Shown here one piece after another: positions 34,801-41,471 of a stretch of 41,726 bases of DNA. Position 1 is the first letter of the stretch. Every line of letters starts with the position of its first letter. Origin of the DNA: a virus; IMG/VR virus record IMGVR_UViG_3300021197_001748, positions 1 through 41,726 of that record. One strand, written 5' to 3'. A model generated the notes under the pieces. It was given only the letters and a program-made list of their open reading frames with translations, ran no database searches and had not been told where the DNA came from. Both the position numbers and the translations under genes were made by a program.

Positions 34801-35260
34801 CAAGACGGATTTACCATTCCTTCGAGAAAGCAGGTTTTCCCAGGATGCTGAAGCTGCCGCTACTGGCTTGACGATTCTAGCAAATGTTTATGAGATAGAA
34901 ATGAAGATGGTGGGCAATACTATATTTGCTCCCGGTATGAAACTATATCTCAATCCATCAGGGCTTGCTCCAATGCTCGGTAGCCCCACCGCCAGACTTT
35001 CGCCAGCCAGCTTGTTGGGAATTGGAGGGTATCACGTGGTGATTGGAGTTCAATCCTATATCGAATCCGGAGTATATGAAACCACGGTCAAGGCAATTTG
35101 GGAAGCCTCTGGCGCTCGTGGTGCTATCGGGTTTACCGGACCAGAGGCACAAACACAGGGTGAGTCTGAATGCTCTACTGCGGTGGAGGCACAGAATATC
35201 ATAACTTCCCCGACAACCACTACGCAAACTATAAATACCGGACCAAGGGGGAATGACTAA
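31823..35260 (+). CDS. Very large baseplate-region structural protein, family not recognised
   Basis: The 1145-residue protein has no obvious signal peptide or membrane segment. Readable landmarks are a mid-N block (DGVPYFNMVHGQTDTIVNRL, then ISSLVPKVRLFKVFY), a beta-rich block (LKLHFQSFDELL, then YYKLRVEVGWQDPG), a highly charged coiled-coil stretch near residues 590-660 (QIEEARANCNEERVEQVIQE), and a C-terminal beta region with YHYMLIYAINAGS, GIYHFGIGKDRGIFKTVKFS and LGIGGYHVVIGVQSYIESG. Its place after the gp53-type gene and its size suggest a major wedge, hub or tail-tip protein. I cannot match it to T4 gp6, gp7, gp10 or gp27 from motifs. Overlaps the next gene by one base. Confidence 0.7.
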   Translation: MATIFEKNRIIQNLFGAEYSLTDVSGTLGITNAASDLWSALASQRTSLINELNNEARYYSSTLRENLPPDRGTVRQANMSIPRAAALPSAAVAGTRHASSYKRAVQSYVWIRLDRSQISSPTEEQLAPLYQAGQETTSVPQVTSLRDEIRNKFTELIQQADLGSVANSEYANGFQRVVSWVRASGGGHAETASEDGILSRAEDNYIWAYYHNFIAAERTAPAESFASTVEDFIGLDSIVRLFVRVRVRILLLESIDALPEEQQEVLEDPDQVGTAQYEEARAALRTEANRRAQEEYVDDEDRGSPENQAKLRRLAEQSFLIDFLPEFAEQNQQIRAPSYLNSDGVPYFNMVHGQTDTIVNRLLYNPALQNMDILRPSEISSLVPKVRLFKVFYDSEADFNANQGDSNQKTYIEQEVPFDNYMQPSEVESMLTNAFDRGRGVGLTSFDWRMEGRDPFTARRDIFAELKLHFQSFDELLRERSLRTSDLNESKTFRYVDLVNIGIVRRTSTGAWNPDYYKLRVEVGWQDPGPNSSFLGDAATRQAKRDAVLNSKMVLYLTATDHDIDINDQGNVNMSVQYVAWQEASYLDQDSDVLATEQIKQLRLQRRAQIEEARANCNEERVEQVIQEFKTTLRQERYESYKKILDKLYLERRIFYVPVPVADLESYINFGESGVNTRAINDIFNNRNNTSAAANIDFANSVSINDRDSTLASVLGMNVGSLEDGDILKRIQEMSYDASGANANVQYFYFGDLIKVALEQVSDSTSARAGSNPSAGMVGKLEKDLRILMGPISFKRTLAPARGTGATQTQFVYNINLADIPISVNFYSEWFLKQVVSEQRNTYPILVFIRDLANRLLTGILKNQSHGLTNVARQNLQIRSNFFTAAASATGGDIVQENFNTILNPRARLRQQLGFDTPQQFTRLDLDAATGLPEPLMRPPNDNEKSYHYMLIYAINAGSTQDLQGNYSEDRRRGIYHFGIGKDRGIFKTVKFSKTDLPFLRESRFSQDAEAAATGLTILANVYEIEMKMVGNTIFAPGMKLYLNPSGLAPMLGSPTARLSPASLLGIGGYHVVIGVQSYIESGVYETTVKAIWEASGARGAIGFTGPEAQTQGESECSTAVEAQNIITSPTTTTQTINTGPRGND

Positions 35261-36480
35261 TGGCACAGTTTGAAGGCAAGAACAACCTAGGAACAGCCGA
35301 GCTTTTCTTTCAAAGGCTAAGCTATTCCCAATTGGCGTTTCCTCAGACAAGTACCTCCCTTTACATTCATCCAGTCAGGGACTTTAACTTTGCAGAGTAC
35401 ATGTTATATGGTAGAATCAATAAAAACCATAACCCTATTGTCTTTAACACTGCTAACTCTAAAAAGATAACTAACTTAAATGACCCAAAGCAAGACTTGG
35501 TGGCTGCCAATTTTGTAGTTGATGCCTTTAATGCAGTTGTGCAGGAATTTGAGAAGGCAGCACTCCAAGGCAAGTTGGCGACTGACGACTCGTATCTATA
35601 TCAAATCAAGGCGTATAGGGCTTATGACTCATTGGGCGCATTTTATAACAACTACCGCAATGGGCTGGAGGATGTGTTTTTCTCTAACTTTTTGACTGAC
35701 AAGAGAAATAAGCAAATACTTAATTTTAAAACCTTTTTGCCCATATTTCTTGAGTATGTCAATCAAGTATCGGTTGCCTCTGCAGTCACACAAACAGGGT
35801 TTGTTACTACGCAGTTCTGCCCTCCCACCTCATCTGGCTTGGTAATTTCAATATCTGATTTAGATCCCACCAATGACGAGGACAAGGAGAAGTTTATCAC
35901 GAGTCCTAACTTCTTATATTATGTAGAAGTGCTAAAGAAGCACGGCTTCTTCATCAGCAAGGACAGACCGTGGGAGCTTGTAGCAGATATAGCAAACCCT
36001 TTCATGTTAAACTATGCAGCGACATACAACCTGGCTAACGAAAGCGACGTCCTTCGAGTCTATTTTCAAAGATCCGGTGGATCTGACATTGCAGACCTAA
36101 AGCGACTCGCTCTTAGCTTTTACAATCGAATTGCCTTGACAAAGACATTCGTAAGGACTAGAATTAAGAATGTAAAGTCGCGTGTATGCCGCAAGCCCTA
36201 CACGCTCCAACAGATGAATGAAGAATATTCTGATAATTATTGGCTTGACAAATACGTCGATATAAGGTATTATGAACAACAACAGCCAATAAGCCAGGGT
36301 GATTTGATATCCTTAAAGAAAGACCTTCCTTCCCTCTTAACCGTTCGTGGTTTGAACTTTGTTCTATCCCATATTAATAATAAACTTAATGGGTTTGCAA
36401 ACTATGACGGATCTTTTGCCAAGATTGCTCTTAAGCAAGAATCAAGGCGCACTGGTAAACCTCTAGACCCAACATATTAA
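35260..36480 (+). CDS. Unknown structural-region protein between baseplate genes and the polymerase
   Basis: The start overlaps the previous stop (TAATG) and the end overlaps the polymerase start in the same manner, so it is translationally tied to both. The 406-residue product is mostly alpha-helical with aromatic-rich segments (LYIHPVRDFNFAEYMLYGRI, YQIKAYRAYDSLGAFYNNYR, YFQRSGGSDIADLKRLALSF, TLQQMNEEYSDNYWLDKYVD). No catalytic motif, signal peptide or membrane segment is visible. Baseplate or tail attachment is likely from context. Coupling to a DNA polymerase is odd and leaves a different role possible. Confidence 0.68.
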   Translation: MAQFEGKNNLGTAELFFQRLSYSQLAFPQTSTSLYIHPVRDFNFAEYMLYGRINKNHNPIVFNTANSKKITNLNDPKQDLVAANFVVDAFNAVVQEFEKAALQGKLATDDSYLYQIKAYRAYDSLGAFYNNYRNGLEDVFFSNFLTDKRNKQILNFKTFLPIFLEYVNQVSVASAVTQTGFVTTQFCPPTSSGLVISISDLDPTNDEDKEKFITSPNFLYYVEVLKKHGFFISKDRPWELVADIANPFMLNYAATYNLANESDVLRVYFQRSGGSDIADLKRLALSFYNRIALTKTFVRTRIKNVKSRVCRKPYTLQQMNEEYSDNYWLDKYVDIRYYEQQQPISQGDLISLKKDLPSLLTVRGLNFVLSHINNKLNGFANYDGSFAKIALKQESRRTGKPLDPTY

Positions 36481-37667
36481 TGCTATTTCAATCATTGGAC
36501 AACAAGCAGGAGTGCGTGGGTGTCTACATGAATGGCGAACTTCATTTCGATACCATTCCAGAAGACCTCACTCAAACTTGGAGCTACTCAGCCTTCCTAA
36601 AAGACAGGGAGGATGTGGACTATGCATTCTTATACACCCAGAAGGCTCTAGGAGACGCCTGTCCGGTCCATCTCTCCGAAGCGTGGGAAACCATTAACGG
36701 AAGAATGAAAGCCTTCCTACGTGCCTTTACGACGGCTAAAGTGGATCTTACGCAAAACTGCTTTTTTGATCTCGTTGGAGACCAATTTTTGCGTGAGTAT
36801 TGCGAGATGAAAAATAAGATTACGGAGTATGTGCTAGAGAGTTGCGAGAAGCCGCAAAACTATGACTTCTTGGTCGACCTTACAAGAGTGTTGCACGACA
36901 TTAGGCACCGCCCGGTGCAAGTGGACCCATGGGCTCTAAGGGACATCGTACATGAAAAGCGCGCTCGTCAGTTTGTACAAAAGTTAGGTCAGATTTCGCT
37001 TTCGTGCGATTACAATATCTTTGGCACCAAGACTGGACGACTCACAACCAGAAAGAACAGCTTTCCTATCCTGACCATGGACAGAAGATTCAGGAAGGTT
37101 GTTGCGCCCACCAATGACTGGTTTGTGTCTCTGGACTTTAACGGAGCAGAGCTGCGCACATTCTTGGCACTCTCCGGTATAGAGCAGCCTGATTGTGATG
37201 TGCACGAGTGGAATAGGGAAAACGTATATCGAGGAGAGGGCACCAGAGACGAGGTAAAGGAAAGATTCTTTGCTTGGCTATACAACCCAAAGTCAAAAGA
37301 CTTCCTGACTGATAGATTCTACGATAAAGAAAGAGTGCTCAGCAAACACTGGGACAAACGTGCGGTAAGTAATCCATTTGGCAGGACCATCCTTGCTGGC
37401 GAACACCACGCCATGAGCTACTTGATACAAAGCACATGTTCAGACGTAGTTCTTCGACAAATGATTGTGTTAGATAGGTTTCTGCAAGAGAAGGAATCAT
37501 TTGTTGCATTTTGCGTTCACGACGAAGTTGTTCTAGACGTAACTGACGCCGGCTGTGCGCTAATCAACGAAATGGTTGAATATTTTTCAAATACTCCTTT
37601 AGGAAAGTTTGGAGTTAATGTAAAATATGGAAAGAATTATGGGGATATGAGAGAATGGAAACAATAA
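36480..37667 (+). CDS. Minimal family A DNA polymerase (palm/fingers only)
   Basis: The 395-residue product carries the family A core. A TGRLTT box lies near residues 185-190. Motif A is DFNGAELRTFLALSG, with metal ligand Asp219. A motif B-like helix TRDEVKERFFAWLYNP keeps the exact R-x3-K-x3-F-x3-Y spacing (Arg256, Lys260, Phe264, Tyr268). Motif C is VHDEV (His347, Asp348, Glu349). There are only about 165 residues before the core, and I see no 3'-5' or 5'-3' exonuclease motif, so this is far smaller than T7 gp5 or Pol I. T4-type phages normally replicate with family B gp43, not seen in this window. It overlaps the preceding structural gene by one base and the tubulin-like gene by 13. Role in replication, repair or priming is open. 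Confidence 0.82.
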   Translation: MLFQSLDNKQECVGVYMNGELHFDTIPEDLTQTWSYSAFLKDREDVDYAFLYTQKALGDACPVHLSEAWETINGRMKAFLRAFTTAKVDLTQNCFFDLVGDQFLREYCEMKNKITEYVLESCEKPQNYDFLVDLTRVLHDIRHRPVQVDPWALRDIVHEKRARQFVQKLGQISLSCDYNIFGTKTGRLTTRKNSFPILTMDRRFRKVVAPTNDWFVSLDFNGAELRTFLALSGIEQPDCDVHEWNRENVYRGEGTRDEVKERFFAWLYNPKSKDFLTDRFYDKERVLSKHWDKRAVSNPFGRTILAGEHHAMSYLIQSTCSDVVLRQMIVLDRFLQEKESFVAFCVHDEVVLDVTDAGCALINEMVEYFSNTPLGKFGVNVKYGKNYGDMREWKQ

Positions 37668-38485
37668 TTGGTCTGGGTCGAGCGGGTTGTGCAATTGCCG
37701 ATCGCTTCTCTCAATACCCTCAGTACGAAGTTTACAAAATAGACGTGGGGCTAAAGAGGACCCCAAGGACTCTTGGCGTGAAGAAGGTTGACCAGCCAGA
37801 GCGTTATGAAGAAGACTTCGGAAGCCTCAGAGGATTCTTTAAGGGAGTCTCTGGTGATGTACTATTTGTAGCCGGCGGAAGCGGACTAATAAGCGGCGCT
37901 TCTTTGCGTATTTTAGAACAGTTGAAAAAGTGCAAACTTCATATACTATACATATATTCAGATGAGGAATTGCTTGGTGAGACTGCCCGGCTTCAACAAA
38001 GGCTGACTTTTAACGTTTTTCAGCAATATGCCCGCTCGGGATTGCTTGAAAGGGTCATATTAGTCGATAATACCTGTTTGGAGAATATTCTCGGTGATCT
38101 GCCCATAATCGGCTTTTATGACAAGCTGAATGAATTACTTGTTCCTACTATGCATATGATAAACGTGCTCTCACATGACGAGGGGGTTATGGGAAATATT
38201 TCTCCCCCACATCAGATAAGCAGGATAGTTTCCTATGGTCTAGTGGATTTTGAAAGTGGTGAAGAAAAACTATTTTTTAATCTTGACAACGTGCGAGAAA
38301 AGGTGTATTATTATGCTATCAATGAGAAAAAGTTAAGGGAGCAGGGGAATATTCATAAGAAGGTTGTAGCACAAGTTAAGGCAAACGCCGAAAACACAAA
38401 AACCACGTATGGGATATACCCCACTCAATATGACCAAGACTATGTTTATTGCGTTGCATATAGTTCAATAATTCAAGAAAATTAA
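37655..38485 (+). CDS. Tubulin/FtsZ-like GTPase candidate
   Basis: The 276-residue product begins with a glycine loop IIGLGRAGCAIADRFSQYPQ, comparable to the N-terminal nucleotide loop of tubulin and FtsZ (GQAGCNIG / GVGGGGGNA). VLFVAGGSGLISGASLRILE (around residues 69-88) stands at the place of the GGGTGTG tubulin signature. Next come ERVILVDNTCLENILGD and a helix YDKLNELLVPTMHMI, corresponding in order to the FtsZ IVIPND-LLE strand/helix and the core helix with the guanine-contacting Asp/Asn. The second domain is diverged, as in phage tubulins. A plain Rossmann NAD-binding protein is the main alternative, but it would not explain the second glycine loop and the following order. It overlaps the polymerase gene by 13 bases. 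A filament role in positioning DNA or particles is inferred. Confidence 0.6.
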   Translation: METIIGLGRAGCAIADRFSQYPQYEVYKIDVGLKRTPRTLGVKKVDQPERYEEDFGSLRGFFKGVSGDVLFVAGGSGLISGASLRILEQLKKCKLHILYIYSDEELLGETARLQQRLTFNVFQQYARSGLLERVILVDNTCLENILGDLPIIGFYDKLNELLVPTMHMINVLSHDEGVMGNISPPHQISRIVSYGLVDFESGEEKLFFNLDNVREKVYYYAINEKKLREQGNIHKKVVAQVKANAENTKTTYGIYPTQYDQDYVYCVAYSSIIQEN

Positions 38486-38488
38486 TCC

Positions 38489-38517
38489 TTGACAATTCCC
38501 CCACTTTTTGATATAAT
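38489..38517 (+). promoter_or_regulatory. Consensus sigma70 promoter for the gp32-type gene
   Basis: TTGACA at 38489-38494 and TATAAT at 38512-38517 both match consensus exactly and are 17 bases apart. Transcription would begin near 38524. It is the best host-type promoter I found in the window and implies early or middle expression independent of the late operons. Confidence 0.88.
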
Positions 38518-38574: not shown

Positions 38575-39336
38575 ATGGGAATCAATCTAGACAAGATGCG
38601 AGCAAAGCTCGCTGCAGTACAAAACAATGGAGACTCTTCTAGGAGTGCGTTCTGGCGTCCAAACGACGGCAACCAAACTATTCGTGTGGTGCCTACCGCT
38701 GACGGCGACCCCTTCAAGGAGGTATACTTTCATTACAATGTAACTAAGGGTGGTATTCTATGCCCTAAGCGTAACTTTGGGGACCCCTGTCCCGTCTGCG
38801 ATTTCGCGTCCAATCTGTGGCGTGACGGCGTAGACAAGGATGATGAGTCTTCAAAGAAGATGGCAAAGAGCCTCTTCGTTCGTCAGCGCTTCTTTAGCCC
38901 GGTTCTAGTCCGTGGCGAGGAGACTGATGGTGTTCGATGGTGGGGCTATGGTAAGACTGCCTATGAGAGCCTGCTGAATCTTGTGCTGAACCCAGATTAC
39001 GGTGATATCACCGATACTGAGGAGGGAACCGACTTGGTTCTCAACTATGGCAAGCCGCCTGGAGCATCTTTCCCGCAGACTAAGCTGCAGCCTCGTCGGC
39101 GTCCGTCACCCCTCTCTGAGGATGCGGATGCAGTGACGATGTACCTAAACTCAATCGAGGACATTATGAACCTCTTTGAGCGAAAGACTACCGAAGAGGT
39201 CGACCAAATGCTACGAGAGTTTGTCTCTGGCGGTGTGGATGCAGAGGGTAACTCTACGGAGACTACCCAGTATGCAAGCACAAGCACTACCGGCGACTCG
39301 GTGGACGATGCGTTCCGCCAACTCGCGGATGCCTAA
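38575..39336 (+). CDS. gp32: Single-stranded DNA-binding protein (gp32-type)
   Basis: The 253-residue protein has an OB-fold core with a zinc site arranged as His53 (YFHY), Cys63, Cys72 and Cys75 (CPKRNFGDPCPVC), closely matching the H-x12-C-x9-C-x2-C order of T4 gp32. Basic and aromatic DNA-contact segments follow (RQRFFSPVLVRGEETDGVRW). The C-terminus is acidic and Ser/Thr-rich, ending TGDSVDDAFRQLADA, the usual partner-binding tail. It coats ssDNA during replication and recombination. T4 gp32 is 301 residues. It has its own consensus sigma70 promoter and leader hairpin, AAGGA 9 bases before the ATG, and a terminator after it, so it forms a monocistronic unit. Codon use is well adapted, consistent with high demand. 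Confidence 0.9.
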   Translation: MGINLDKMRAKLAAVQNNGDSSRSAFWRPNDGNQTIRVVPTADGDPFKEVYFHYNVTKGGILCPKRNFGDPCPVCDFASNLWRDGVDKDDESSKKMAKSLFVRQRFFSPVLVRGEETDGVRWWGYGKTAYESLLNLVLNPDYGDITDTEEGTDLVLNYGKPPGASFPQTKLQPRRRPSPLSEDADAVTMYLNSIEDIMNLFERKTTEEVDQMLREFVSGGVDAEGNSTETTQYASTSTTGDSVDDAFRQLADA

Positions 39337-39394: not shown

Positions 39395-40531
39395 ATGAAC
39401 ACAGTAGATTTTGAGGCGCTGCAGGCGCAAGAAGACAAAGTGGTGCAAGAGATTTTAAGCCGTGGGTTTCTTGATCCGCGAAAGACATACCCACAGCTCT
39501 TTTCTTTTGAAAATTCCAGACGCTATATTACAGAACTTAAGGATGCGCCATATAGCTCGCTTGAAGAAAATCAAGTCAGCGAATACGTTATTGATGAAAA
39601 GAGAGCCACGCATGAGCTGGCGCCGCTGATCAGAGAAGAGGGTCTTCAAAATCCGCCATTGGCGATGACGACCGCCATAGGCACGAAGCTAAAGCTGTTA
39701 ACTGGACACCACAGAAGCTTTGCTCTGGCTTCTCTAGGACAACAGATTCCAGTTATCATCGTAACAGAACTTCTTAGTCTCAATAATACGTCGGTATCAG
39801 CTGATGCTGACTTAATTCAGGGTATCGCGGCAAATCCTCGTAACCAGAATAGGACTTATTCGAAAAACGACGTCGCCCTACAAGTTGAGCTGAGCCTTAA
39901 GAAGAATCCATATCAAGATGGCTTAAACCCATCTGGTAAGCTCCCCCCTCGCCATAGCGATGACCCGGCTGTGTTCGCGTTTGATGATATGCTAAAAAGA
40001 CTTAAAGCATACGAGCACTTCCCTAATCCTGGCGATCGAACCAAGATATATAATCTAGTAAAGAGGGGGGCGGTGCGTTCAAAGCAAATTGATATGAAGC
40101 TTCCTGCTGAGCAGACTAATCATCTTATACGACAAGGGTGGGCGACTGGTATAAAGGAGAATGGCAAGCGTGTTGCTGCCACCGAACATTATGACTCCGC
40201 AAGAAATGCCCTAATCGTTATGGTTGATGATAATGGTCGACATCTAGATGAAAAGCTTTTGAAGCTAGCCCTGATGTGGTATGACGTTGACGACCGACAT
40301 GTCTGGGAGGAAAATAATATTAAGTTTATTGATATTGCAGGAAGAATCGCGTCTCCACCCGGTGATAAAGCATCGCTCGACACAAAGCGCCTTAATTTTA
40401 AGCAGAGAGTGGCGGAGTGGAACGAGACCCTGCAGAACTTTGGAGTTGGCTTGAGAATTCGTTATCTTGCCCTTCCAAAGCAGCTAAAGACGCCGTCCGA
40501 TAAGGATGTCACGTATACAATAAATGCCTAA
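39395..40531 (+). CDS. ParB-like nuclease-domain protein paired with a DNA methyltransferase
   Basis: GGAGG lies 4 bases before ATG 39395. The 378-residue product has a ParB N-terminal-type domain at about residues 75-125: PLIREEGLQNPPLAM, then LKLLTGHHRSFALASLGQQI and PVIIV. The GHHRS box is the ParB signature that binds nucleotide. The rest is helical and basic, with a likely DNA-contact region near KRLKAYEHFPNPGDRTKIYN, and no partition-type dimer domain is recognised. It overlaps the downstream Dam-type gene by 8 bases. ParB-like proteins next to DNA methyltransferases are a recurring phage arrangement, usually read as DNA-modification or anti-restriction modules. No parA or parS is visible, so plasmid-style partition is unlikely. 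Confidence 0.75.
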   Translation: MNTVDFEALQAQEDKVVQEILSRGFLDPRKTYPQLFSFENSRRYITELKDAPYSSLEENQVSEYVIDEKRATHELAPLIREEGLQNPPLAMTTAIGTKLKLLTGHHRSFALASLGQQIPVIIVTELLSLNNTSVSADADLIQGIAANPRNQNRTYSKNDVALQVELSLKKNPYQDGLNPSGKLPPRHSDDPAVFAFDDMLKRLKAYEHFPNPGDRTKIYNLVKRGAVRSKQIDMKLPAEQTNHLIRQGWATGIKENGKRVAATEHYDSARNALIVMVDDNGRHLDEKLLKLALMWYDVDDRHVWEENNIKFIDIAGRIASPPGDKASLDTKRLNFKQRVAEWNETLQNFGVGLRIRYLALPKQLKTPSDKDVTYTINA

Positions 40532-41471
40532 GACCCCACTCCGATATCCGGGTGGTAAGTCCCGTGCTGTAAAACACATCCTCCCTCTCATCCCCGAGGA
40601 TATAACGGAGCTTTGCTCTCCGTTCCTTGGGGGTGGGTCGGTGGAGCTTGCTGTTGCTGCCAGAGGAACACCCGTCCACGCTTATGATATCTTTGAACCA
40701 CTCGTGTGGTTCTGGAATGCTCTGTTAACAGACCCCCGCTTATTGGCAATCTGTGCAGACTCTTACCGAAAAGAACATCCTGATTTTGAAGGACAGCAAG
40801 GGCTTCTAAAAGAAGATTTTACACGCCTCCGCAATGAGTTGAGAGAGAGCGACCGTTTCTCTTTTACCAACGCAGCCAAGTTCTACGCAATCAACCGTAG
40901 CAGCTTTTCAGGGGCAACGTTCTCCGGTGGTTGGTCAAAGCGCGCATCTTACGAGCGCTTCACCGACAGTTCCATTGACCGTATCTATAACTTCCGAGAG
41001 CCCAACATAACAGTTAATTGCGAGGATTTTAAAACCTCGATTAATAAACACCCCGACGCATTCCTATACTGCGACCCGCCATACCTGCTTGGAAACGACA
41101 AGGACAAGCTATATGGTGACCGGGGCAACACGCACGCAGGTTTTGATCACAGAGCCCTCTATGACATCCTTAGTCAACGTTCTGGCTGGGTGCTATCATA
41201 TAATAATTGTCAAGAAATACGAGACCTCTACGACAATTATGAAATTCGTGAAGCCGAATGGTCAATGGGCATGAGCAATGTAGACGGCGCCGCATTGCGA
41301 CCAGTCAGGGCTGCCCTAGAGAGAATTGATAATGATTTTAAAGCCCTTATAAAAAACGAGAACCTCCTCGCCAAAGAAGTGGCTCAGCAGGCGCGTAAGC
41401 TACTGAATGAATGCTGGGATGCGAATAAAAAAAAGATGGGTAAGTCCTCAGAGATACTAATTATAGGTTGA
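40524..41471 (+). CDS. dam: Dam-type (D12 class) DNA adenine N6-methyltransferase
   Basis: The 315-residue protein has the D12-class order: LRYPGGKSR at residues 6-14, the S-adenosylmethionine loop SPFLGGGSVEL at 32-42, and the catalytic CDPPYLLG with Asp184-Pro-Pro-Tyr187. The AINRSSFSGA segment between them is also typical. It transfers a methyl group to adenine N6 in a short target. The target could be GATC, as for T4 Dam, but the specificity cannot be read from the sequence. A C-terminal basic helical extension (KEVAQQARKLLNECWDANKK) follows the catalytic core. It is coupled to the ParB-like gene before it and its TGA overlaps an ATG at 41471. Likely role: protection of phage DNA or marking for packaging or replication. 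Confidence 0.92.
   Translation: MPKTPLRYPGGKSRAVKHILPLIPEDITELCSPFLGGGSVELAVAARGTPVHAYDIFEPLVWFWNALLTDPRLLAICADSYRKEHPDFEGQQGLLKEDFTRLRNELRESDRFSFTNAAKFYAINRSSFSGATFSGGWSKRASYERFTDSSIDRIYNFREPNITVNCEDFKTSINKHPDAFLYCDPPYLLGNDKDKLYGDRGNTHAGFDHRALYDILSQRSGWVLSYNNCQEIRDLYDNYEIREAEWSMGMSNVDGAALRPVRAALERIDNDFKALIKNENLLAKEVAQQARKLLNECWDANKKKMGKSSEILIIG

Follow-up and report, generated by a model that had tools for sequence, protein, structure and literature searches.

A minimal protein with a predicted tubulin/FtsZ fold in the replication operon of Far-T4-type phages

Background

Two groups of phage tubulins have been described, the Pseudomonas PhuZ/TubZ group and the Clostridium TubZ group (PMC3678025), and the described examples are those of nucleus-forming jumbo phages and of Clostridium pseudolysogenic phages. 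PhuZ requires a C-terminal extension for assembly, and a hydrolysis-dead variant (D190A) still polymerises with GTP into stable, non-dynamic filaments (PMC4244570). Isolated "FtsZ" annotations also exist among uncultured phages. In contrast, a literature search found no description of tubulin or FtsZ in Far-T4 phages, which are widespread in aquatic environments (PMC4360716, PMC7198788), although one relevant 2025 paper on PhuZ-encoding phages (PMC12625630) was not covered.

The sequence analysed here (the window) is the whole of a 41,726-nucleotide viral stretch, IMG/VR record IMGVR_UViG_3300021197_001748. The original prediction, made from the sequence alone, was that positions 37655-38485 encode a tubulin/FtsZ-like GTPase within a T4-type phage replication cluster, and that this might reflect cytoskeletal organisation of replication. 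Computational analyses confirm the reading frame and its context and support the tubulin-superfamily assignment. However, "GTPase" is not supported, and a cytoskeletal role in replication remains an inference.

A conserved gene family without convincing single-sequence matches in Pfam, PHROGs, isolate phages, or PDB sequences

ORF 37655-38485 (+) is a complete 276-aa reading frame that starts with ATG. On its own, the protein gave no convincing match in Pfam or PHROGs, no hit among isolate phages by tblastn, and no match among PDB sequences; a profile search against PDB sequences also gave nothing credible. In contrast, a scan of IMG/VR with the protein gave 37 loci, and in total at least 586 IMG/VR loci encode relatives. 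Pfam matches remain weak even across the family: of 31 aligned members, 4 hit Pfam Tubulin (PF00091) at E 0.0055 at best, and no gene of this type (hereafter type 1) exceeds the PF00091 cut-off in the 12 large viral contigs searched. The gene is under strong purifying selection, with dN/dS of 0.05-0.09 where dS is not saturated, similar to the neighbouring polymerase.

One hit lay in a WOR-3 bacterial MAG chromosome (CP070664.1; L118:7514-12873), and a cellular origin was therefore considered. However, this hit is a roughly 5 kb Far-T4 phage fragment (406-aa gene, PolA, tubulin, gp32, and UvsX) with runs of N near its ends, and is thus most likely a scaffolding contaminant or an unannotated phage insert.

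The predicted structure has the tubulin/FtsZ two-domain arrangement

AlphaFold2 modelling of the protein gave a mean pLDDT of 93.5 and a pTM of 0.91. The order of elements, as assigned here, is S1-H1-S2-H2-S4-H4-S5-H5-S6-H6-H7, followed by S7-S8-H10-S9-S10, which is the tubulin/FtsZ arrangement without H3, H8, and H9. A Foldseek search of the PDB gave 477 matches at E<=0.001, and the top 50 are all FtsZ, TubZ, or tubulin (best E 3.3e-13; TM-score on the query 0.64-0.73), although at only 12-17% identity. Against BFVD, the first eight matches are phage FtsZ/tubulin/PhuZ-like proteins or unnamed entries. These include an "FtsZ Cell division GTPase" of an uncultured Caudovirales phage (A0A6J5RW92), a phage "cell division protein", a phage "tubulin", and PhuZ of Noxifer (E 1.3e-6). 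A0A6J5RW92 is the best structural match of all (TMq 0.80, E 2.4e-13), but is 452 aa in length and only 15% identical. In addition, profile-profile alignment with 21 FtsZ sequences scored 31.9 over 159 columns with the motifs in register, while unrelated neighbour-gene families used as decoys scored at most 22.5.

The N-terminal GxGxxG-like loop also gives weak TrkA_N and NAD_binding Pfam hits (E 0.01-0.1), as could be expected of a plain Rossmann-fold NAD(P)- or FAD-binding protein mistaken for tubulin. However, the central H7 helix and the C-terminal domain are present in the model, and this alternative is contradicted by the structural search and is very unlikely. The tubulin fold is therefore close to certain on the available computational evidence.

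The nucleotide pocket is conserved but the T7 hydrolysis loop and helix H8 are not

Elements named in the original prediction (an N-terminal glycine loop, a loop at the tubulin-signature position, a strand, and a core helix) are present and conserved across 100 distinct family members. The T1-like phosphate loop GLGxAGC (37670-37690, +; residues 6-12) is in register with FtsZ GVGGAGCN, and G6, L7, G8, G11, and C12 are 97-100% conserved; D30 is 95% conserved. The loop GGSGLISGA at the T4 signature position (37874-37900, +; residues 74-82) is in register with FtsZ GGGTGSGA, but is relaxed from the FtsZ/tubulin GGGTG(S/T)G (G75 91%, G77 89%, S80 87%, and G81 70%), and some members lack key glycines. 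The S6 strand and the T6 residue N139 (38054-38071, +) are in register with FtsZ IPN, and N139 is 98% conserved. The core helix H7 (38114-38173, +; residues 154-173) carries Y154 (83%, plus F in 15%) and N159 (98%). The YDKLNEL motif of this helix matches the spacing of YGDLNHL, probably the beta-tubulin motif in which Y224 and N228 contact guanine.

In contrast, the T7/H8 region (38174-38224, +; residues 174-190) is coil in the model, with no helix H8, and no alignment column is more than 66% acidic. The C-terminal domain (38225-38464, +; residues 191-270) contains S7, S8, H10, S9, and S10 but no H9, and the protein ends six residues later. It thus lacks both a PhuZ-type C-terminal extension and an FtsZ-type tail. 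Binding of a nucleotide is likely, but efficient hydrolysis is not, and the designation "GTPase" is doubtful.

Relative to FtsZ (S. aureus 7ojd, M. jannaschii 1fsz, and others), the protein has the two-domain fold and the T1, T2, T4, T6, and H7 pocket in the same order (TM-score about 0.7 on the query), but has a relaxed signature, lacks H3, H8, H9, the T7 NxDxxD motif, and the C-terminal peptide, and lies in a replication operon instead of a division cluster. TubZ of Bacillus/Clostridium plasmids and pseudolysogenic phages is also a tubulin-fold homologue (4ei7 is among the top hits), but the phage protein lacks the H8 and T7 features and is part of a T4-type replication module. PhuZ/phiKZ TubZ of nucleus-forming jumbo phages is likewise a phage-encoded tubulin fold in a large myovirus, but the similarity is weak, and alignment with phiKZ PhuZ (one sequence only) scored at decoy level. 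A dynamic PhuZ-like tubulin, which hydrolyses GTP and forms a spindle or tracks that position phage DNA or carry capsids, would be compatible with the fold class, the retained pocket residues, and the large myovirus-type genome. However, it is unlikely given the unconserved T7 catalytic acid and H8, the absent C-terminal extension, and the position beside PolA and gp32, although no nucleus system was looked for.

The gene occupies a fixed position between a short PolA and gp32

The window is a fragment of a T4-type phage genome, with homologues of the terminase, portal, prohead protease, gp23, tail sheath, and gp32. The best gp23 matches are an uncultured record, Immutovirus, Microcystis phage Mel-JY01, and Rhodothermus phage RM378, i.e. 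the Far-T4 group (PMC4360716), for which flavobacterial or Bacteroidetes hosts have been proposed (PMC7198788, PMC13037479). Larger contigs of this type run about 150-200 kb. Immediately upstream of the tubulin-fold gene is a 395-aa family-A DNA polymerase (36480-37667, +; PF00476, E 3.6e-13), the reading frame of which overlaps the tubulin start by 13 nt, and downstream is a gp32-type single-strand DNA-binding protein (38575-39336, +; PF08804, E 2.4e-16). A sigma-70-type promoter with a 12/12 consensus match and an extended -10 lies between the tubulin gene and gp32 (38489-38517, +), suggesting, from the consensus match only, that gp32 is also transcribed separately from PolA-tubulin. Upstream of the polymerase is a 406-aa protein of unknown function (35260-36480, +) that matches no Pfam or PHROG family; it is regularly present but very fast-evolving (median identity 25%, against 46% for PolA). 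Downstream of gp32 (39395-41471) are a protein with a weak ParB-like PHROG match and a D12 (Dam-type) adenine methyltransferase, and the interval between gp32 and UvsX varies among relatives.

Among 99 distinct tubulin genes, PolA is upstream in 80 of 80 testable loci (61 within 50 nt and 52 overlapping), gp32 is downstream in 83 of 83, and UvsX in 57 of 58. In a close relative, the order continues with UvsX, exonuclease, DnaB helicase, and ribonucleotide reductase. These loci were found through the tubulin, and thus the figures show that it always sits there, not that every such operon has it. Indeed, three related phages that carry a second tubulin (see below) have PolA, gp32, and UvsX in the same order with other genes in the slot; in one of these (G048), the interval holds a DnaQ-like 3'-5' exonuclease, as assigned by eye (L338:2958-3794). 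Immutovirus likewise has no tubulin in that slot, and a split tubulin in its gp002/gp003 was rejected from the sequences. Therefore, the protein is not needed by that replisome type in general. Profile searches of five Far-T4-related reference records (Immutovirus, RM378, Mel-JY01, and two uncultured huge-phage records) found neither tubulin type.

Protein distance matrices for 62 loci correlate most strongly between tubulin and PolA (Mantel r 0.885, compared to 0.786 for PolA-gp32; no permutation above 0.2), although the overlap of the genes makes physical linkage part of the reason. In ten large relatives, no family-B polymerase and no gp45 clamp was found by Pfam, although the clamp search has weak controls. 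The only polymerase detected per genome is a ~400-aa family-A enzyme, which may need accessory factors. The tubulin-fold protein could be a non-polymerising accessory subunit of PolA (a processivity or recruitment factor, or a GTP sensor) that has kept only the tubulin fold. The overlapping genes, the co-divergence, and the presence of other genes in the same slot in related phages are consistent with this possibility, and loss of T7/H8 would damage the bottom face of a protofilament. However, gene overlap is common in phages and does not prove binding, the nucleotide pocket is conserved without an obvious need, and no polymerase accessory factor with a tubulin fold appears to be known. This alternative is therefore considered unlikely, although less so than a dynamic PhuZ-like tubulin.

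The fixed operon position and the co-divergence with PolA, rather than free mobility, also count against the possibility that the protein is an FtsZ decoy that blocks host division by capping or poisoning host FtsZ filaments. The fold is FtsZ-like, and a subunit without a working T7 could act as a cap. However, the low identity to FtsZ and the absence of an FtsZ-like H8 or C-terminal peptide also count against this explanation, which is very unlikely.

A second, canonical tubulin family in T4-type contigs

A PF00091 search found another tubulin in one of the contigs that carry type 1 (G007, positions 103389-104480). This type 2 family (about 360 aa) is present in at least 298 viral loci, lies elsewhere in the genome, and is strongly conserved, with a canonical GGGGGTGS signature and a T7 FDxKDL motif in which D249 and D252 are invariant in a 32-sequence alignment. 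The AlphaFold2 model has a pLDDT of 89.1 with H8 present, and the best PDB hits are CetZ, TubZ, and FtsZ. Of 20 type 2 contigs, 5 also carry type 1; of 12 large type 1 contigs, 1 carries type 2; and contig 3300037634_007065 also holds both. These counts overlap and contigs may be fragments, but at least six contigs carry both types. Near one type 2 tubulin (L152:928-4032), a 1,035-aa ORF matches both SbcD-like and SbcC-like subunits, i.e. an apparent fusion.

Possible function

Overall, the gene encodes a minimal protein with a predicted tubulin/FtsZ fold that is a core part of the replication operon of a Far-T4-type phage group, and both its fold and its context are well supported. A replication-linked role is likely, and GTP binding is probable, but both are inferred. 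It is further inferred that the protein is made together with PolA and self-assembles head to tail, or forms short oligomers, that turn over slowly or not at all because the T7 catalytic acid is absent; PhuZ D190A is a precedent for assembly without hydrolysis (PMC4244570). Polymerisation is uncertain; only single chains were modelled and there is no direct evidence of GTP binding, polymerisation, or contact with PolA or gp32. The protein would then act as a static scaffold or polymerase-associated platform that holds or positions the replication machinery, rather than as a dynamic spindle like PhuZ. This is the favoured explanation, but the static scaffold itself is tentative; operon position shows linkage and not mechanism.

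A bolder possibility, doubtful at present, is that a third, previously undescribed lineage of phage tubulins works as a hydrolysis-free scaffold, or as a polymerase-bound factor, inside the replisome of T4-type phages. This would apparently be the first tubulin-fold component of a replication machine, and its coexistence in some phages with a second, catalytically complete tubulin would give a two-tubulin viral cytoskeleton. In comparison to the phage tubulins described previously, the protein reported here is a fixed gene in the replication operon of an abundant, uncultivated T4-type group. It raises the testable question of whether the tubulin fold has been recruited into DNA replication, and whether a tubulin that has lost its hydrolysis loop still polymerises.
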